From positions 1 to 45,838 of the forward strand of contig CANIRZ010000012.1 of the NCBI GenBank assembly GCA_947470185.1: a DNA stretch of 45,838 nucleotides. Direction: 5' to 3'. Source of the stretch: Sphingomonadales bacterium (GTDB lineage Bacteria; Pseudomonadota; Alphaproteobacteria; Sphingomonadales; Sphingomonadaceae). The notes beneath the pieces were generated by a model. The model had not been told where the DNA came from. It made no database searches and saw nothing but the letters and a program-made list of their open reading frames with translations. Positions 36,794 through 45,556 of the stretch are shown here, piece after piece. The position numbers and the translations under genes are program-made. How positions within the stretch are numbered: position 1 is the first letter of the stretch; every line of letters starts with the position of its first letter.

Positions 36794-38551
36794 TCACTCC
36801 AAAACGTACAGGCCAGGTGCGGGTTCCATAGCTGGATACTTTTTGCTCCCCTGCGTTGCTGGGGCAATGACTTCAGCGCCGGAGCGGGCGTGGAGCCACT
36901 CCATCCAATATGGCCACCAGCTTCCGGCGACTTCTTCGGTGCCTTTCATCCATTCTGTGACGTCGGCTGGGGTCTTGCCGTTCGAATGCTTCCAGTATTT
37001 CGCCTTGGGGTTGCCCGGCGGGTTTAAGATCGCTTGCATATGGCCAGCCTGGCTCAGGATGAATTCGACATTTTTGCTGCCGAACAATTGCGTCGAACGG
37101 TAACATGCGCGCCATGGCGTAATGTGGTCGGTTGTCCCGCCCAAAACGAACAAATCGCCCGTCACCTTGGTCAGGTCAAGCGTATGTCCGGCAATGTCGA
37201 GCGCACCCGGCGCAGCATAGGCATTGGCCTCAAAAAGCTCCAAAAAGTCGCCCATCAGCGCCGATGATAGGTTGGTCGCATCGGCATTCCAGAACAGGAT
37301 ATCAAATGCGGGCGGATCATCGCCGAGCAGATAATTGTTGATGACATAGTTCCAGATCAGATCATTGGGCCGCAACCAAGCAAAGCCACGCGCGAGGCTG
37401 CTGCCCTCAATCACGCCCTTTTTCGCGGCGCGTTGCCGTGCCAGCGCAATGCCATTGTGCGACACAAGGCTCGCCGCCTCAGTGTCGCCGGGCCTGGGTT
37501 CGAGAACACACACCATCATCGTGATGGCGTTAGCGCGCGTGTCCCCCATCGATGCGAGTTTGGAGAGCAGCACCGACATCGTCTGCCCGCCGGAACAGCC
37601 GCCGGAAATGTTGACCTTGTCGCTGCCGGTAATCTCACACACGACATCAAGTGCCTTGATGCAGCTTTCGATATATTCGGCCATGCCCCAAACGCCCATG
37701 TCGTGGGTCGGGTTACGCCATGAAATCATGAATGGCTGAATTCCGTGGTCGGTCTGCCATTTGATGATCGATTTTTCCGGCGACAGATCATTGATATACA
37801 TTTTGTTGATCTGCGGCGGAATGGTGAGTTGTGGCGTTGCGAACACCTTGTCGGTCGTGGGCGCATATTGGATAAGTTCAAAACGTTCATCGCGATACAC
37901 CACCGCACCCTTTGCGGTCGCGACATTCTCGCCAAGCTTGAACGGCTTTTTGTTGACCTGGCTCACCATCATATCGTTGTGGACCATGTCATTATATGCG
38001 TTTTTCAGGCCCTTCACGAGGCTAAGGCCGCCAGAGTCTACAAGCCGTTTCTGTGCGGTCGGGTTACCGATCAAGCTGTTCGTTGGCGACATCGCGTCGA
38101 TGATGATCTGCGAAATGAAGTTTGCGCGGTCGCGCTCCAGCGCATCGAGGTCTAAATCCTCAATATAGCTTTTGACGCCCTTTTGCACCGCGAGATAATA
38201 TTGCGCGCCTGCCTTGAAAAACGGATTGAAAGTCCATGCCGGGTCCATGAAACGCTTGTCTTTGGGGTCAGGCGCAAGGTCGGACTTTCCAGTTATGATC
38301 TTAACAACATCTTCGGAGAAGTTGGTTGTCGCCTTCCAGGCCTTATCGGGGTTGGTCGCGGTTTGGCGGAGCATTAGGCCAATTGCGCCAATGAAATCTT
38401 CCCGCGCCAAACCGGCGAGCGGGCCGAGCGCCATTGTGGCATCATTAGCAGCATCAAATGCCCCTGCAATCCCCGAAAAAGGCGCGCCTTTCTTTTGCGA
38501 TTTCTTTTTGCCCGTTTTCGCGTTTCCGCCCGTTTCCGCCTTGCTTGCCAT
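36794..38551 (-). CDS. phaC: Class I poly(R)-hydroxyalkanoate synthase
   Basis: Polymerises (R)-3-hydroxyacyl-CoA into PHA storage granules. 585 aa, the normal class I length. The modified lipase box GGCSGG carries the catalytic Cys319; Asp475 (GGTTDHITPW) and His504 (SQAGHMQAILNPP) complete the triad. The N-terminal domain (about 50-200) with NPFFKAGAQYYL and the AQKRLVDSGGLSLVKGLKN block is typical. Residues 1-25 form a Lys/Gly-rich tail. The frame extends to 38641 but ATG 38551 has an excellent AAAGGAGAGG ribosome-binding site. No phasin, phaA, phaB or phaR gene is in the window. Confidence 0.96.
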   Translation of the reverse strand: MASKAETGGNAKTGKKKSQKKGAPFSGIAGAFDAANDATMALGPLAGLAREDFIGAIGLMLRQTATNPDKAWKATTNFSEDVVKIITGKSDLAPDPKDKRFMDPAWTFNPFFKAGAQYYLAVQKGVKSYIEDLDLDALERDRANFISQIIIDAMSPTNSLIGNPTAQKRLVDSGGLSLVKGLKNAYNDMVHNDMMVSQVNKKPFKLGENVATAKGAVVYRDERFELIQYAPTTDKVFATPQLTIPPQINKMYINDLSPEKSIIKWQTDHGIQPFMISWRNPTHDMGVWGMAEYIESCIKALDVVCEITGSDKVNISGGCSGGQTMSVLLSKLASMGDTRANAITMMVCVLEPRPGDTEAASLVSHNGIALARQRAAKKGVIEGSSLARGFAWLRPNDLIWNYVINNYLLGDDPPAFDILFWNADATNLSSALMGDFLELFEANAYAAPGALDIAGHTLDLTKVTGDLFVLGGTTDHITPWRACYRSTQLFGSKNVEFILSQAGHMQAILNPPGNPKAKYWKHSNGKTPADVTEWMKGTEEVAGSWWPYWMEWLHARSGAEVIAPATQGSKKYPAMEPAPGLYVLE

Positions 38552-38764
38552 GGTCCTCTCCTTTGCCCTCCTGCGCAGAATTACACGGCCCGACCATTTG
38601 GTCAAACACTCCTCGCAATGTGAACAATTGCAAACACGCATATCTAAACTGGAGACAAGCCGCCACCTGTCTTAATACCGATCGTTCAGGAACAAGTTTA
38701 CGTCATCCTTCGACCGGTCCAATGGCGCATTCACGTTTCAAAACAAGGTCAATGGCCATTAAAA

Positions 38765-39226
38765 ATGACAGCTAAGGTAAAGCAGCTTGAGGGCCTTGGG
38801 CGGCTACTGAAAGCCGCTGGCGTTAAGCCTGCAAGCGCGGAACAGATGATCCGTGAGCATCTGGACAGCATCCAGGATGGCACGCAGCAGCGACATGCTG
38901 AAATCGTAAAAACGGTTCGGGAGCTAAAGAAAGAGTTGGTCGAATTGCGCCAGAGCCACAGTCTTTCCGTATCAGAAATCCGCATCACGACAGATCTTAT
39001 TCACCATGAATTTGAGGCGAACAGCATTGTTGTTGCCCAAATGCTTCGCCACGCAAAGGCTTGGATAGCTATCATTGTTCTGATCCAGATCGCGATACTC
39101 TCCATCCTGCTTGCGACCGCAGCCAGTGACTCGCGTTGGCTCGATTTCGGCTCCACGCCAGCCACGGTAAAATCTCCGATGAAGGCTGGCATACCAACCG
39201 CTGCCCCGGCTCAAACAAAAAATTAG
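38765..39226 (+). CDS. Hypothetical coiled-coil tail-anchored-like membrane protein
   Basis: 153 aa with no family I recognise. An N-terminal amphipathic helix (MTAKVKQLEGLGRLLKAAG) is followed by a coiled-coil-like stretch with heptad spacing (about 44-68), one membrane helix (99-120) and a short Pro/Ala-rich periplasmic-side or C-terminal tail. It is followed six bases later by the class A beta-lactamase-like gene, so the two are cotranscribed. It could be a scaffold; the function is unknown. The ATG has only a weak ribosome-binding site. Confidence 0.6.
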   Translation: MTAKVKQLEGLGRLLKAAGVKPASAEQMIREHLDSIQDGTQQRHAEIVKTVRELKKELVELRQSHSLSVSEIRITTDLIHHEFEANSIVVAQMLRHAKAWIAIIVLIQIAILSILLATAASDSRWLDFGSTPATVKSPMKAGIPTAAPAQTKN

Positions 39227-39231
39227 ATATC

Positions 39232-40278
39232 ATGCGCGGTTATATAAAGGCTATCGCCATCGCGCTCGGCGTATCGGCATTTACGGCAACAGCTTTAGCC
39301 GGTGAGGCTTCCCCCATTAAAGCGACCAATGCCATTGCTGCAGCCGATGCCAAGCTTCAGTCTGAAATTGATGCGCTCTGGAAGAAGTTTCCGGGCCGCG
39401 TTGGTATTGCCATCTATCCCCCACTTTCCAAAGAGATTATCGGCAAGCGACAGACCGAACGCTTTCCGCAGCAAAGCGTTTCCAAAATGTGGGTTGCGCT
39501 GACGATCTTGGAACAGGAGGCTGCGGGCAAGTTATCGCTGGATAAGCGCATCCGGGTCAGCGGCGACGACGTAGTTGTCTTCAGCCAGCCTTTAAAGCGT
39601 TATCTCGACGGTCGGGACTCATTCGAAATGCCTATACGCGAACTGCTCGCGCACGCCATTAATGCCAGTGACAATCTGGCGAACAGCGTGTTGTTGCACT
39701 TAGCTGGTGGTCCAAAATCGATCAACAAGATGCTCGACCGGCGCAAGGTAACGTCCATTCGCTTCGGTCCGGGCGAAGTCCTGCTGCAAAGCGCAATCGC
39801 TGGCGTTGAGTGGAAACCACAATATAGACAAGGCAATGCATTCAAGGCGCAGCGGTCGCGTATTCCGATGGAAAAGCGTGAGGCAGCATTGGCGGCCTAT
39901 CTGGAAGCGCCACTTGATGGCGCCGCGCCCGGGACTATTGTTCTGGTACTAAAGCGCTTCAGTGAACGTGGCCCCAATGACCCCGGTGCAAAATTGCTAA
40001 AGCTCATGGAAGGCACATACACCGGCAAATCCCGACTGCGCTCAGGGCTCGCCCCGCACTGGAGCCTCGCGCATAAAACGGGGACCGGACAAGTCCTTGG
40101 TTCGACGTCGACAGCGATTAACGATGTAGGCGTAATGAAGGCACCGGATGGTTGCCTTTATCCGGTAGCTGTCATGATCGCGCAGACACGTTCCGATATG
40201 CAGGTGACGAACGGCCTGATGCAAAATGTTGCCCGCGCGATCATCCACCACCACAACGAAATTCACCCGAAGACATAA
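39232..40278 (+). CDS. Class A beta-lactamase-like serine hydrolase with signal peptide
   Basis: 348 aa. A Sec signal peptide (about 1-23, cleavage after ALA) precedes the transpeptidase fold. All three class A motifs are present: S82-V-S-K85, S146-D-N148 and K282-T-G284. The spacing between SDN and KTG is about 30 residues longer than in TEM-type enzymes, and no clear ExxLN omega-loop Glu can be seen; the insertion falls near EWKPQYRQGNAFKAQRSRIP. So it may be a divergent penicillinase or a D,D-peptidase-type enzyme. ATG 39232 is chosen because the longer frame from 39136 lacks a signal peptide and overlaps the previous gene. Confidence 0.85.
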   Translation: MRGYIKAIAIALGVSAFTATALAGEASPIKATNAIAAADAKLQSEIDALWKKFPGRVGIAIYPPLSKEIIGKRQTERFPQQSVSKMWVALTILEQEAAGKLSLDKRIRVSGDDVVVFSQPLKRYLDGRDSFEMPIRELLAHAINASDNLANSVLLHLAGGPKSINKMLDRRKVTSIRFGPGEVLLQSAIAGVEWKPQYRQGNAFKAQRSRIPMEKREAALAAYLEAPLDGAAPGTIVLVLKRFSERGPNDPGAKLLKLMEGTYTGKSRLRSGLAPHWSLAHKTGTGQVLGSTSTAINDVGVMKAPDGCLYPVAVMIAQTRSDMQVTNGLMQNVARAIIHHHNEIHPKT

Positions 40279-40384
40279 ACAACTTCAATCATGCGGCGTC
40301 ATTCCGTATCTCTAAAAAAGCAATAAAGTCAGTATTCTGGAATACAAAACTGCATTGACGGTGTCAGCCTCCCCCCAACTGGCA

Positions 40385-40532
40385 ACACACATGTCGCGCG
40401 GCTCCGCAAGAACCTGAACCCGACCCGGCATTTGGCACTAGCCTCAACGCATTATACGGCTTTAGATATATGTTGCAGGCCGATGTACACGCCATAAAAA
40501 CCCTGCTCGAGCCGCTTGCCATGCCAGCTTAG
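40385..40532 (+). pseudogene. Remnant 3' end of a duplicated OmpR-type response regulator gene
   Basis: These 148 bases align by eye with the last 149 bases of the intact regulator gene (42059-42207) at about 85% identity. They encode THVARLRKN, then after a one-base deletion the original frame resumes as DPAFGTSLNALYG...LQADVHA...EPLAMPA and the same stop. Most differences are silent or conservative, so the copy evolved under selection before losing its 5' part. The rest of 40279-40384 holds only a small perfect palindrome (GTATTC-TG-GAATAC, 40332-40345). Confidence 0.88.
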
Positions 40533-40575
40533 TTCAGACTATGTTAACGCGCTTTCCTTAACAAGACAGTCGCTT

Positions 40576-41283
40576 ATGCCAATTATTCCAGAGCAATTGT
40601 CCTTGCTCGATGTTGTCGATGACGTTCCATCATCACCGGCGACTTCGATCATTGCATCACGGCCTGTTGTCGATCTGCTCAATAGTCAGGTCATGGCCTA
40701 TGAATATATGGCCTGCGACCAATATAGCTTTCTACCCAACCGGAATATTTTGTCGGAGCTTGACCTGCAGCACATATTGGATACAGCGGGTTTGCTGTCC
40801 TTGTCTGAAATCTTTTTATCGGTTCCGACTAACATTTTCGTGGCTTTAGACCTGTCGAACCAAATGGCATGGGCGTTGCGTTCGCTACTGTCCAAAGGAA
40901 CGCATATCAGTGTTTTGTTGGCTGCAACAGACAATGACGCGGCCAACAATGCTGTCAGCAGCGCAATGCAAAACTGGCGCCGAGCCGGCTGTAGCGTAGG
41001 GATTGACGGATTTGGCTACGCTGCCGTCCCGGCGCTTTGGCCATTGGTACATAATGTTGACGTAGTCCGCTTTGACCCACGCCTAATTGGCATGGTCCGC
41101 GCGCAAGTTATTCCCGTATCCCCCACCCAGAAACTCGTTAATCTGGTGGCCTCAATGGGTATTTCGCGCATCCTCGTGGACGGATGCCTTTCCATTGATG
41201 ATGCCATGATGTTTCAGGAAGCCGGAGCTACACATGGCCAAGGCCCCGTGTTTGGTGAGTTCAGCCTTACACAACCGCACTGA
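40576..41283 (+). CDS. Degenerate EAL-domain protein (probably no phosphodiesterase activity)
   Basis: 235 aa, a stand-alone EAL-like domain. Family landmarks can be placed but nearly every catalytic residue differs: EAL is EYM (43-45), the NLS block reads LDLS (91-94), DDFG is DGFG (144-147), KID is RFD (165-167) and the AEGVE region reads VDGCLS; the final QG (222-223) remains. It therefore probably binds c-di-GMP weakly or not at all and may act through protein contacts. A TTG at 40516 would start inside the regulator remnant, so ATG 40576 is chosen. It lies just after the remnant and 186 bases before the intact regulator; a hairpin follows its stop (41295-41322). Confidence 0.7.
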   Translation: MPIIPEQLSLLDVVDDVPSSPATSIIASRPVVDLLNSQVMAYEYMACDQYSFLPNRNILSELDLQHILDTAGLLSLSEIFLSVPTNIFVALDLSNQMAWALRSLLSKGTHISVLLAATDNDAANNAVSSAMQNWRRAGCSVGIDGFGYAAVPALWPLVHNVDVVRFDPRLIGMVRAQVIPVSPTQKLVNLVASMGISRILVDGCLSIDDAMMFQEAGATHGQGPVFGEFSLTQPH

Positions 41284-41294
41284 CGCGCTCCCCT

Positions 41295-41322
41295 GCGTCC
41301 CAGTATTGGGCCGCGTAGACGC
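41295..41322 (+). terminator. Hairpin after the EAL-like gene
   Basis: CCCA-GTAT-TGGG (41299-41310) is nested in an outer GCGTC/GACGC pair (41295-41299 and 41318-41322, sharing one C). No clean T run follows directly. The GCGTCCC part recurs at 42296 in the second duplicate, which supports a functional 3' structure. Confidence 0.4.
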
Positions 41323-41469
41323 AAAGGGAAAATTTACCTTAGTTTACATAAGCATTGATGTCGTTTTCATCCGTTTCGGGGGAGATTGGCGATGTATTTG
41401 TACGCGAGCAGCGTAATAAATCCGCCAAATACTGATATCAGATCTTAAACCACTCAAAAGGGCCGCGCG

Positions 41470-42207
41470 GTGAACAATTATCACATTGCCGTAGTTGAAG
41501 ACGACCCGTTGTTTGCGGCTGAGCTCGAAGAATTTTTAAGTGGATTGGGATATGGCGTAACCAGCTATAGCTCAGCACAAAAGTTTTTGACCGATATTCG
41601 TCAAAAAGAATGCGATCTTTTAATCGTCGATTGGTCACTACCTGACCTGACGGGGATTGAGGTTCTTGAGTATGCCCGGAAATTTCATCCTGACATGCCA
41701 TCAATCATGCTTACGGCACGCAATGATCGCGGAGACGTCATTCGCGGGTTTGAAGCCGGTGCGGATGATTTCGTGTCGAAGCCGGTTGACCCCGAAATTC
41801 TTCGCCTGCGGATTAAATCGGTTTTACGCCGCTATAATGGCAATGTGCGTACCCGTCCGGAATCGGTTGTGCTTGGCCCATATTTGTTGCGTCCATCGAC
41901 ATCGACGGTGTATTTTGACGACGAAGCCATGATTTTGCCAAAGCGCGAATTCGACATGGCTATGCTGTTCTTCACCAACCCCAATCGGTTGTTGTCGCGC
42001 CAATATCTCGCGGCGACTTTGTGGGGCAAGGTGGTGGATTATCAGTCGCGGACTATCGACACACATGTCGCGCGGCTCCGCAAGAACCTGAAACTCGACC
42101 CGGCATGTGGCATTAGCCTCAGCGCGTTATACGGCTTTGGATATACGTTGCAGGCCGATGTGCACGCAATGAACCCCGCGCGCGAGCCACTTGCTATGTC
42201 TGCTTAG
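41470..42207 (+). CDS. OmpR/PhoB-family response regulator
   Basis: 245 aa DNA-binding regulator. Receiver domain (about 1-120): acidic E10-D11-D12, phospho-acceptor D54 (LLIVDWSLPDLTG), T82 (IMLTAR) and K104 (FVSKPVD) are intact. The C-terminal winged helix (about 130-225) has the recognition helix region SRQYLAATLWGKVVDYQSRTIDTHVARLRKNL. No histidine kinase gene is in the window. The GTG start at 41470 has AAAAGGG about eight bases upstream. Its last 149 bases are duplicated as a remnant at 40385, and an EAL remnant follows it, which shows that it belonged to a tandemly duplicated [regulator - EAL] unit. Confidence 0.92.
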   Translation: MNNYHIAVVEDDPLFAAELEEFLSGLGYGVTSYSSAQKFLTDIRQKECDLLIVDWSLPDLTGIEVLEYARKFHPDMPSIMLTARNDRGDVIRGFEAGADDFVSKPVDPEILRLRIKSVLRRYNGNVRTRPESVVLGPYLLRPSTSTVYFDDEAMILPKREFDMAMLFFTNPNRLLSRQYLAATLWGKVVDYQSRTIDTHVARLRKNLKLDPACGISLSALYGFGYTLQADVHAMNPAREPLAMSA

Positions 42208-42256
42208 TTTAGGACCAATGGCAAGGGGCGCCCATGTCATTGGCGTTAGAATTACC

Positions 42257-42303
42257 GAATTTAGCGTTACTTAACCGCACTGATGCACGGCACTTGCGTC
42301 CCG
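42257..42303 (+). pseudogene. Remnant 3' tail of a duplicated EAL-like gene
   Basis: The segment up to the TGA at 42281-42283 matches the last 27 bases of the EAL-like gene and its TGA (41257-41283) with only a few differences and no gap, and the match continues into the 3' flank (TGCGTCCC). Weaker similarity to the HGQGPVFGEF codons may extend back to about 42214. Only this tail of the second EAL copy remains. Confidence 0.65.
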
Positions 42304-42315
42304 CGACCGGGACGC
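42296..42315 (+). terminator. Perfect 7-bp hairpin upstream of pnuC
   Basis: GCGTCCC (42296-42302) pairs with GGGACGC (42309-42315) around GCGACC, followed by TAAATC. It sits 14 bases before the pnuC start. It is best read as the inherited 3' hairpin of the deleted EAL copy, now acting as a terminator or attenuator ahead of pnuC; it lacks a clear T run. Confidence 0.45.
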
Positions 42316-42328
42316 TAAATCACCGAGC

Positions 42329-42886
42329 ATGAGCTTACTTGAAATCCTTGCCGTTCTGCTTGGCATTGCCAATATATTATTGATTATTAAGCGATCGGTG
42401 TGGAATTTCCCCGTCGCGATAATCATGGTGTCGCTGTATTTCGTCATTTTCCGAGATGCCAAGCTGTACAGCGATGCAGGGCTACAGATATTTTTTGCGG
42501 CTGTGAACCTGTACGGTTGGTGGAGCTGGACGCGGAACAAGGCAGACAGCGGAGACATCATTGTCCGTCGAATTTCTGTTATGGGCTATGGCTTGTGGAT
42601 ATTGGGCGCTATTGCCGCGATTTGGGCATGGGGCGCCGTAATGCATGCTGAAACCGATGCTACCTATCCATATTGGGACGCATCGGTCGCAATGCTCTCT
42701 ATTGCCGGACAGATATTGATGGCACGGCGCTTTGTAGAAAACTGGCATTTCTGGATCATCGTCAACCTGATTTCCATTCCCTTATATGCGATGAAGGAAT
42801 TGTATCTGACTGCAGGCCTTTATGGGCTATTCCTTGTCCTAGCTGTTGCCGGACTGATCGCATGGCGCAAGGCGGAACAAAAATGA
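42329..42886 (+). CDS. pnuC: Nicotinamide riboside/mononucleotide transporter PnuC
   Basis: Inner-membrane facilitator for nicotinamide riboside, 185 aa, about seven helices. PnuC marks are visible: NLYGWWSWTR at the second helix pair, and the C-terminal signature DASVAMLSIAGQILMARRFVENWHFWIIVNLISIPLYAMKELYLTA spread over residues about 111-158 with the conserved Trp/Asn substrate pocket. Its stop overlaps the next gene start (ATGA), so transporter and kinase are translated together: import is driven by phosphorylation of the riboside. The ribosome-binding site is weak, and a hairpin lies directly upstream. Confidence 0.93.
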   Translation: MSLLEILAVLLGIANILLIIKRSVWNFPVAIIMVSLYFVIFRDAKLYSDAGLQIFFAAVNLYGWWSWTRNKADSGDIIVRRISVMGYGLWILGAIAAIWAWGAVMHAETDATYPYWDASVAMLSIAGQILMARRFVENWHFWIIVNLISIPLYAMKELYLTAGLYGLFLVLAVAGLIAWRKAEQK

Positions 42887-43419
42887 AGCGTATCTGCCTT
42901 CACGGCCCCGAAAGTACCGGAAAATCGACGTTGGGCACTCGGCTCGCGGCGGAACTCGGATGCGAAGTCGTACCCGAATATGGCCGTGCATATTGTGAGG
43001 CGCATGGCACTGACATTGGCAGACAAGAACTGATCCACATCGCGCAAACGCAAGACGCCATGAACCGCGCCGCCGCTGCGCGCGCAGGCGAACTGGGCGC
43101 TGGCTTTGTGCTGTTTGACACAGACCCACTCATCACCGCCGTCTGGGCGGATATGATGTTCGGCGCAACGCCGGGCTATCTGCGCGACGGCTATTTCGAC
43201 AGCTTTAGAGGCTTTTCTGACCTTTATCTTTTGCTCGATATCGACCTCCCCTTCGTAGATGATGGCCTTCGCGTCTATGCGCAACCTGCTGAGCGACGGC
43301 AATTTTTTGACCTGTGCACATTGGAACTCGACAGAAATGATGTACATTACGTCCGCATTCAGGGGCTCGGCGAAACCCGCTTCGCGGCGGCAAAGGCCGC
43401 GATATTAGGGGCCGAATGA
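42883..43419 (+). CDS. NadR-like ribosylnicotinamide kinase / AAA family ATPase
   Basis: 178 aa. P-loop GPESTGKST at about 8-16, then EVVPEYGRAYCEAHG, the DTDPLITAVWADMMFG block and an LLLDIDLPFVDDGLR lid region match the kinase domain of NadR, which phosphorylates nicotinamide riboside to NMN. The NMN adenylyltransferase and DNA-binding domains of E. coli NadR are absent. ATG 42883 overlaps the pnuC stop; upstream in-frame residues belong to the pnuC shadow frame. Together with PnuC it makes a minimal NAD salvage operon. Confidence 0.88.
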   Translation: MKRICLHGPESTGKSTLGTRLAAELGCEVVPEYGRAYCEAHGTDIGRQELIHIAQTQDAMNRAAAARAGELGAGFVLFDTDPLITAVWADMMFGATPGYLRDGYFDSFRGFSDLYLLLDIDLPFVDDGLRVYAQPAERRQFFDLCTLELDRNDVHYVRIQGLGETRFAAAKAAILGAE

Positions 43420-43687
43420 ACCGAAATATGCTGCTTTGATATCCGCATGGAATGATGCGCCTGCAAAGCGGTCTTCTGAACCATGCACACACAAGCAAAA
43501 CTGTAATAGTTGGATCGTAAAGGTGCAAATGGGCTAAATCGCTTTAGACTGCACCAGAACCGGCGATATTTGCATCCGTTTCGGAGATAAATTAGCAATA
43601 AAGGTGTGCGAGGCCGGCGCCAATTTGCGCAGAGCTACTGTGGCTGAAATTACGCCATTGAGAACAGTGAAATTGGAAGCTTGCGCC

Positions 43688-45556
43688 CTAAGAGACCTTC
43701 TCCAACGCCTCACCCGCCGCAACCCAGCGAGCCTCGGCAGCTTCCTGCGCAGCGATTATTTTGCCACGCCGTTGCGACAGTTCACCCATCGTCAGGTTCT
43801 TATACTCGTTTGCTGCCGACGCAGGGTCGAACATCGCACGGTCAATCGCGCTCAACACAACCTCAAGCTTGGCCAAGTCAGCCTCGGCATCACTCACATC
43901 CCGCTTAAGCTTGGCTTGCGCCTCACGTGCGGCAGCCGCAGCTTTCTTGTCGTCCTTGCGGTCAGCCTTTGATACCTTCTCCTTCGCTGGCCCCTTGCCC
44001 AGGATGAAGTCGGTATAATCCTCAATCGTGCCGGAAAATTCGGTCGCAGTCCCGCCGTCGACGAGCACCAGCCGGTCCGCCGTCAGCTCAAGCATATGGC
44101 GGTCATGGCTGACCAGCACTACTGTGCCTTCATATTCATTCAGCGCCTGCACCAATGCCTCACGCGCATCGACATCCAAGTGGTTCGTTGGCTCATCGAG
44201 GATGAGCATATGCGGCGCATCGCGGGTGATCAGCGCCAGCGCGAGCCGCGCACGTTCGCCGCCCGACAATTTGCCAACCTTCGTCGTCGCCTTTGCGCCC
44301 GAAAAGCCAAAGCGCCCCAGTTGCGCGCGCACCGCGCCGGGGTTCGCACCCTTCATCTGATGGGTCATATGCTCAAGCGGGGTATCGTCGCCGTCAAGCT
44401 CCTCGACCTGATATTGGGTGAAATAACCGACGCGCATCTTGCCGGAGGAACTCATCTGCCCTTCCATTGGCGTCAGTTGCGCCGCGAGCAATCGCGCCAG
44501 CGTGGTCTTGCCGTTCCCGTTGCGGCCCAGCAAAGCGATCCGGTCATCGGGGTCAATCCGCAAGTTCAACCGCTCTAAAATCGGGTTGCCTTCGGTATAG
44601 CCGACACTCGCCAGATCCAGCGTCACCAATGGCGGTTTCAATTCATCTGGGCTTGGAAAGTCAAAGCTCAATGTCGGATCTTCGGCCATTGCGGCAATCG
44701 GCTGCATCCGCGCCAGCGCCTTGGCTCTGGACTGCGCCTGCTTGGCGGTGGAGGCACGCGCCGAGTTGCGCGCGACATAATCCTGCAGCTTGGCGCGTTG
44801 CGCGTCTTGGCTTGCCTTGGCCGCCGCCAGCTGCGCTGCACGCTCGGCACGTTGGCGCTCGAACGAGTCATAGCCGCCGGAATACAAAGTCACCTGCCCG
44901 CCCTCCAGATGCAGGATATGGTCGACGACATTGTTTAACAGATCGCGTTCATGGCTGATCACCACCATCATCGCGGGATAGCCCTTAAGGAAGTTTTCCA
45001 GCCACAAGGTCGCTTCCAAGTCCAAGTGGTTGGAAGGTTCATCCAGCAACAGCAAATCCGGCTGCGAAAACAATAAGGACGCCAGCGCCACGCGCATTTT
45101 CCAACCACCCGAGAAGCTATCGAGCGGCCGCCCCTGCATATCTTCGTCAAAGCCAAGGCCAACAAGGATACGCGACGCGCGCGCAGGCGCGGTGTAAGCG
45201 TCAATCGCGATCAGGCGTTCATGCACTTCGGCCATGCGGTCATGGTCAAGGCCCTCTTGCTCGCTTTCGATCATCAACGCCGCGCGCTCCGTATCCGCCG
45301 CCAACACCGTGTCAAACGGCGTAGAATCGCCCGCAGGCGCCTCTTGCGCGATATAGCCGATCCGCGTGCCCTTTGGCATCTCAAGGCTGCCGTCATCAGC
45401 CTCCAGCGAGCCAATCATCACCTTCATCAGCGTCGATTTACCCGCGCCATTGCGCCCGATTAGGCCGATGCGGCTATAAGGAGGCAACGCCGCCGTGGCG
45501 CGGTCAAGGATAGTGCGTCCGCCAAGGCGCACGGTGATACCGTTCAGGTTAAGCAT
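43688..45556 (-). CDS. ABC-F family ATP-binding protein (YheS/Uup-like)
   Basis: 622 aa with two ABC domains and no membrane segment, as in ABC-F proteins that act on the ribosome. First domain: Walker A GRNGAGKST, signature FSGGWKMRVALA, Walker B LLLLDEPSNHLD. The interdomain linker (about 240-300) is rich in Ala/Gln/Arg (QDYVARNSARASTAKQAQSR). Second domain: GRNGNGKTT, LSGGERARLALA, ILDEPTNHLD. The C-terminal extension (about 530-620) is a charged coiled coil. This fits the YheS/Uup class rather than EttA. Function in translation quality control is inferred. The 268-base gap before it (43420-43687) on the nrk side shows no gene. Confidence 0.93.
   Translation of the reverse strand: MLNLNGITVRLGGRTILDRATAALPPYSRIGLIGRNGAGKSTLMKVMIGSLEADDGSLEMPKGTRIGYIAQEAPAGDSTPFDTVLAADTERAALMIESEQEGLDHDRMAEVHERLIAIDAYTAPARASRILVGLGFDEDMQGRPLDSFSGGWKMRVALASLLFSQPDLLLLDEPSNHLDLEATLWLENFLKGYPAMMVVISHERDLLNNVVDHILHLEGGQVTLYSGGYDSFERQRAERAAQLAAAKASQDAQRAKLQDYVARNSARASTAKQAQSRAKALARMQPIAAMAEDPTLSFDFPSPDELKPPLVTLDLASVGYTEGNPILERLNLRIDPDDRIALLGRNGNGKTTLARLLAAQLTPMEGQMSSSGKMRVGYFTQYQVEELDGDDTPLEHMTHQMKGANPGAVRAQLGRFGFSGAKATTKVGKLSGGERARLALALITRDAPHMLILDEPTNHLDVDAREALVQALNEYEGTVVLVSHDRHMLELTADRLVLVDGGTATEFSGTIEDYTDFILGKGPAKEKVSKADRKDDKKAAAAAREAQAKLKRDVSDAEADLAKLEVVLSAIDRAMFDPASAANEYKNLTMGELSQRRGKIIAAQEAAEARWVAAGEALEKVS

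Follow-up and report, generated by a model that had tools for sequence, protein, structure and literature searches.

Tandem duplication followed by random loss (TDRL) is known from animal mitochondrial genomes as a route by which gene order changes. Duplication with reciprocal loss is also invoked for shuffled bacterial gene order and, to our knowledge, the full series of steps has seldom been shown. For bacteria, a change in gene order of this kind is formulated in the SNAP hypothesis (PMC7055797), whose authors describe duplications, 8-355 kb in size, in isolates and found two of fourteen to be diverging.

The locus described here lies in a window of 45,838 nucleotides (the whole stretch of DNA that was analysed), which is contig 12 of a 1.48 Mb draft genome estimated to be 63% complete. 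It resembles TDRL in having an adjacent copy, complementary losses, a new gene order and remnants at the expected places; the ancestral single-unit order occurs in relatives, and remnants of both lost genes lie where they were predicted. It differs from TDRL in that the unit is a bacterial pair of genes, earlier and later states are present in relatives and the later loss takes both genes. As in the SNAP hypothesis, in which duplication is followed by inactivation of different genes in each copy and a rearranged order (PMC7055797), different genes have been lost from the two copies. In comparison with the duplications reported in the SNAP study, the tandem unit is small (approximately 1.7 kb), reciprocal loss has gone to completion and two relatives have apparently undone the outcome by deleting the block.

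The principle is already known from TDRL and, for bacteria, from SNAP; as far as our searches reach, what is new is this locus and a near-complete series of states that includes loss of the whole block. Within one genus, this one locus occurs as a single pair, with two regulators, in reversed order carrying both scars, and with both genes gone; the route between gene orders can be read almost step by step from the earlier and later states in relatives. Should the crossover reading set out below hold, an order reached in this way would not be fixed for good.

The locus and its two remnants

From left to right the locus comprises a beta-lactamase-like gene, the 3' remnant of a response regulator gene (RR; RR1 and RR2 denote the first and second copies), an EAL-like gene, an intact RR, a 3' EAL scar, pnuC and a nadR-like gene. 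The class A beta-lactamase-like gene of the left flank (39136..40278, forward strand) is given as the longest ORF, and its true start may be more internal; it scored 92.6 bits against PF13354 and 159.1 bits against NF033103, the latter under the cut-off of 200. It is followed by a spacer (40279..40377) immediately before the RR1 remnant, to which strong matches among 45 genomes of the genus were found only in the window, G018, G068 and G017; no alignment above chance was obtained with the spacers of G006 or G034. The RR1 remnant (40385..40532, forward) retains the 3' end only. The EAL-like gene (40576..41283, forward; PF00563) is intact and encodes 235 aa with altered active-site motifs. Beyond the EAL-RR2 spacer (41284..41469) lies RR2 (41470..42207, forward), an intact OmpR/PhoB-type response regulator gene with a GTG start encoding 245 aa (PF00072, PF00486). 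The right flank is formed by pnuC (42329..42886, forward), a nicotinamide riboside transporter gene, and then the nadR-like kinase gene.

The first-pass annotation had interpreted 40385-40532 as the decayed 3' end of the regulator gene, stop codon included, and its reading was borne out with coordinates correct to within a few bases. Comparison of 40279-40575 with 41284-42207 by blastn gave 129/149 identities with one gap (E 2e-48), and both members of the alignment end at the stop codon. A repeat search recovered the RR1 remnant and RR2 as well, and the remnant may begin at 40378. The frame-breaking indels differ between the RR1 remnants of the window and G018, that of the window being a one-base deletion.

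The second stretch, 42257-42303 (forward), had been taken for the 3' end of a lost EAL-like gene with its flank. Alignment of 42208-42328 with the EAL-like gene and its flank yielded 35/46 identities with one gap (E 8e-5), a score reached by none of 500 dinucleotide shuffles and so above chance. The same stretch matches the EAL-pnuC junction of G064, a genome with a single pair (0/500 shuffles), which places the scar at the original EAL-pnuC junction. The left part of the EAL-RR2 spacer (to about 41318) copies the EAL-pnuC flank and is joined to the upstream region of RR, a combination of flank copy and RR box that is as expected for a duplication junction.

A candidate 5' scar of the second EAL copy, covering the start codon region (42234..42242, forward), is weak. 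In comparison with the RR1-EAL start of G006, the window's own sequence stands at chance level, with 364/500 shuffles as good; equally good shuffles numbered 15/500 for G018, 27/1000 for G068 and 19/1000 for G017. A short open frame extends from this possible EAL start codon to a TGA overlapping the pnuC start codon (42234-42332) and, judged by eye, is also open in G018.

The remnants, the flanks, the relatives with a single pair, a relative with two RRs and purifying selection on the surviving genes are all observed, and it is very probable that the RR-EAL unit was duplicated in tandem and underwent reciprocal loss with reversal of gene order. The reciprocal decay and swapped order proposed earlier thus hold, since both remnants were found and the single-pair relatives have the order RR-EAL. 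The ancestor would have carried one box-RR-EAL pair between the beta-lactamase-like gene and pnuC, the box being a conserved element upstream of RR. Tandem duplication of the unit of box, RR, EAL and flank would have been followed by loss of the second EAL through internal deletion, and RR1 would have been stripped of its promoter and of the greater part of the gene. The outcome would be the order RR remnant, EAL, RR and EAL scar, in which EAL is not behind RR and its box. We infer both the order of these losses and that EAL now has another promoter.

Gene order in relatives and the number of duplications

A search for RR in 45 genomes of the genus (E up to 1e-45) yielded 20 RR genes in 19 genomes. 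Five relatives are MAGs, labelled Sphingomonadales (2), Sphingomonadaceae (2) and Sphingorhabdus sp. EL138 (1). An intact EAL-like gene is present in 9 of the 19 RR-bearing genomes (window, G018, G006, G003, G021, G066, G025, G063 and G064). The prediction that relatives would preserve a single RR-EAL pair as the ancestral state was confirmed by G025, G063 and G064, where such a pair lies between the same two flanks; G003, G021 and G066 have RR-EAL without pnuC within the stretch fetched. G018 has the same arrangement as the window, from RR remnant to EAL scar. In G006 the order is RR-EAL-RR, both RRs being intact; of a second EAL just the final codons are left in front of pnuC, and this tail matches the junction of G064 (0/500 shuffles).

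EAL survives only in pieces in three further genomes with a single copy of the locus (G007, locus L042; G035, L047; G014, L051), as end fragments or lost, with RR kept, and no EAL match was found in seven (G034, G010, G004, G020, G015, G008 and G024). With 10 of 19 RR-bearing genomes lacking an intact copy, EAL is frequently lost while RR persists. Of the 19, 18 have a beta-lactamase-like homologue on the left side of RR, the exception being the stretch from G003, and 10 have a pnuC homologue to the right of the locus, some stretches stopping at a contig end. Among 298 genomes sampled from the family, matches at E up to 1e-8 were restricted to the window, G063 and a weak match in G194, of another genus (E 1.6e-10). 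Two genomes from another family gave matches at E 8e-4, and no relative of EAL was found in viral contigs.

The other state that had been hoped for, two intact pairs, occurred nowhere among the 19; G006 comes with both RRs whole and a single EAL. Besides this absence, the points against the duplication account are the RR tree, the MAG status of five relatives, the 63% completeness of the window's genome and contamination of the G068 assembly (7%). The earlier suggestion that both copies were once functional is supported, and better by the two intact RRs of G006, between which dN/dS is 0.19, than by the changes in the remnant.

A common origin of the duplications in G006 and the window is likely, if contested. 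Their RR2 leaders can be aligned (0/500 shuffles) about a 20-nt element, of which only 3 of 45 genus genomes carry an exact copy: the window, G018 and G006, each in its RR2 leader. Some match is present in 17 of 45 when up to 3 mismatches are allowed. Within G006 the element is found once, at RR2, and not at RR1. The RR1 leader of G006 also keeps the single-copy spacing from box to start (72 nt, where single-copy leaders with a box have 69-75 nt); in the window and G018 the spacing is 120 nt. Both observations speak against independent duplications in G006 and in the lineage of the window, G018, G017 and G068, by which G006 would be an analogue and not an intermediate. This alternative draws its strength from the RR tree, in which RR1 and RR2 of G006 are sisters (100/99) and pairing of G006 RR2 with RR2 of the window and G018 is rejected (AU p 7.5e-7). 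Along the whole gene there are 59 sites at which the two G006 copies share a state that differs from RR2 in the window and G018. The RR1 remnant leans towards RR2 of the window and G018 (93/83), although the test does not reject a placement with G006 (p 0.14). The EAL scar in G006 and that in the window stop at different points. Taken alone, the RR tree favours either separate duplications in two lineages or gene conversion. One duplication with later conversion of the whole gene in G006 would fit leader and RR tree alike, whereas the leader element is not easily accounted for by two duplications; independent origin is accordingly considered unlikely, while still deserving some weight. The window's own history is independent of this question. 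The branch of G006 RR2 (L038), at 0.13, is longer than that of RR1, at 0.02; RR2 has no box, and its function may have diverged.

Probable loss of the block in G068 and G017

Among the 26 genus genomes without this RR, examination for a later state covered G017 and G068. Neither has an RR at E up to 1e-45 or an EAL. In both the order is beta-lactamase-like gene, window-type spacer, one RR 3' fragment, the window's EAL scar and pnuC, and the spacer before the RR1 remnant is matched at 98% in G068 and 91% in G017. The left flank is that of the first copy and the right end that of the second. Informative sites within the G068 fragment comprise, from left to right, one gap, two remnant-like sites (2/2) and then RR2-like sites (12/12), and the flank past the fragment is that of RR2; sites to the left of the repeat were excluded, the flanks of the two copies being non-homologous. 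The G017 fragment starts at RR residue 180 and extends further into RR than the window's remnant. Against the window's RR2, the left 74 bases of this fragment show 18 differences over 72 aligned sites, with 6 gap columns, and the right part 7 over 149.

The simplest reading is that a single crossover, joining the RR1 remnant to RR2, removed EAL and most of RR2 in each genome, the RR repeats left by the duplication having presumably allowed deletion by homologous recombination. Two separate events are favoured because the switch points differ and a clade of G017 and G068 is rejected by the flanking genes (AU p 0.012). In the flanking-gene tree G006 falls outside the window, G018, G068 and G017 (100/100), and G017 outside the other three (99/99; 100/98 in a second analysis). 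The closest kin of the window may be either G068 (75-77/82) or G018, a grouping that is not rejected (p 0.16).

The scars of G017 and G068 might instead be decayed single-copy loci or assembly collapses, with no deletion between repeats. Both genomes are drafts, and their scars have in common a CATGG state that is foreign to the copies of the window and G018 and is unexplained. This explanation is improbable, given that both loci have the window's EAL scar before pnuC as well as its left spacer, that G068 exhibits a single switch from remnant-like to RR2-like within the gene, that private changes are present in both scars and that the double-RR G006 falls outside all four genomes in the flanking-gene tree.

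By a narrow preference, the reversed order is seen as a metastable stage toward losing the signalling pair, in which the leftover repeat makes the EAL-RR block removable by one crossover, as would have happened at least twice (G068 and G017, with different crossover points), and in which coexisting copies may be homogenised by gene conversion, as in G006.

That the window has only the 3' end of the first RR might also suggest a duplication that never included the whole gene. The first copy in G006 is whole, however, and the G017 scar reaches further into RR, from residue 180; a tandem duplication would leave the left side of the first copy whole, so that its 5' truncation requires a later deletion. 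We regard a partial duplication as very doubtful. Transposition or insertion of EAL in front of RR without duplication would account for the order being swapped relative to relatives, is contradicted by both remnants, leaving the RR 3' end before EAL and the EAL tail before pnuC unexplained along with the two RRs of G006, and has next to no claim to belief.

Retained genes and upstream DNA

Both genes retained after the duplication and reciprocal loss, RR and EAL, are under purifying selection, with dN/dS between the window and G018 of 0.10 for RR and 0.12 for EAL. The RR product (41470-42204) contains Response_reg and Trans_reg_C domains (90.8 and 54.9 bits, both above cut-off), the architecture of the OmpR/PhoB type. 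The EAL-like protein matches PF00563 with 38.3 bits against a cut-off of 31.3, over profile positions 87-234 only. Its motifs were referred to the one full EAL domain located elsewhere in the window's genome. In all nine aligned proteins the E of EAL is kept and followed by YM or YI, DDFGTG is replaced by DGFGYA, and EGVE by DG followed by CL, SL or CQ. Intact EAL and DDFGTG motifs, which are required for activity (PMC7148300), are thus lacking, and because the alteration extends to 9/9 proteins the EAL-like protein is probably not a phosphodiesterase. The altered motifs are shared by the single-pair genomes and so predate the duplication. FimX, as described in the same report (PMC7148300), is likewise a member of the EAL family with changed EAL and DDFGTG motifs; unlike FimX-type degenerate EAL proteins, the protein described here is a stand-alone one of 235 aa whose Pfam match is confined to the later part of the domain. 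A PDB sequence search at E up to 0.1 returned no match, and an AlphaFold2 model had a mean pLDDT of 34 and was unusable. A partial literature search returned no paper combining Sphingorhabdus and 'EAL domain'.

A 17-base direct-repeat box, TTYACATTAGTTYACAT, is found 5' of RR within 2 mismatches in 18 of 20 leaders, and at that threshold is missing from those of G006 RR2 and G064. The window's copy of this conserved box is TTTACCTTAGTTTACAT (41333..41349, forward). The distance from box to RR is 69-75 nt in 16 of 20 leaders and 120 nt in two (window and G018). At up to 1 mismatch, in seven genomes searched, the box occurs once, at RR, in four (G000, G018, G006 and G003), is absent from G063 and G017 and has one copy elsewhere in G068; it is single-copy in the sequence searched from the window's genome. 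OmpR-type regulators often bind direct repeats, for which reason the box is read as RR's own site, a candidate for autoregulation with a very small regulon.

In single-pair genomes EAL begins a few tens of bases after the RR stop (43 bases in G003, 24 in G064), which suggests that RR and EAL probably form one transcript under the box. In the window EAL is no longer located behind RR's box and is, on this sequence evidence, probably uncoupled from RR's promoter. The first-pass claim that EAL came under a different promoter is supported to the extent that the box is absent from roughly 300 nt upstream of EAL at up to 5 mismatches; the new promoter itself is conjectural. Four promoter-like sites were counted in 40200-42400, against 2.6 expected, with no EAL promoter identified among them, and four terminator-like sites against 2.7.

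The EAL-RR2 spacer differs between the window and G018 at 37/186 sites, yet 39 nt within the leader (41363..41401, forward), which include the 20-nt element exact in the RR2 leaders of three genomes, are unchanged. A conserved leader RNA at RR2 was considered and dropped: folding z was -2.85 and -3.31 in the window, near zero in G018 (-0.05) and -1.61 in G006, and values for leaders without the duplication went as low as -2.46 (G066) and -5.60 (G034). Rfam gave no match at gathering scores across 38000-44000. A leader peptide from a short ORF at 41358-41432, across the conserved leader element, was likewise dropped, with matches at E up to 0.1 in 2 of 45 genomes (window and G018) and not in G006. 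To the left of the RR1 remnant, the segment 40308-40376 is kept even where EAL and RR are both missing (G068 and G017), and is for that reason probably not an EAL promoter. Over its 69 nt it has one substitution between the window and G018, and it contains the palindrome GTATTC-N2-GAATAC.
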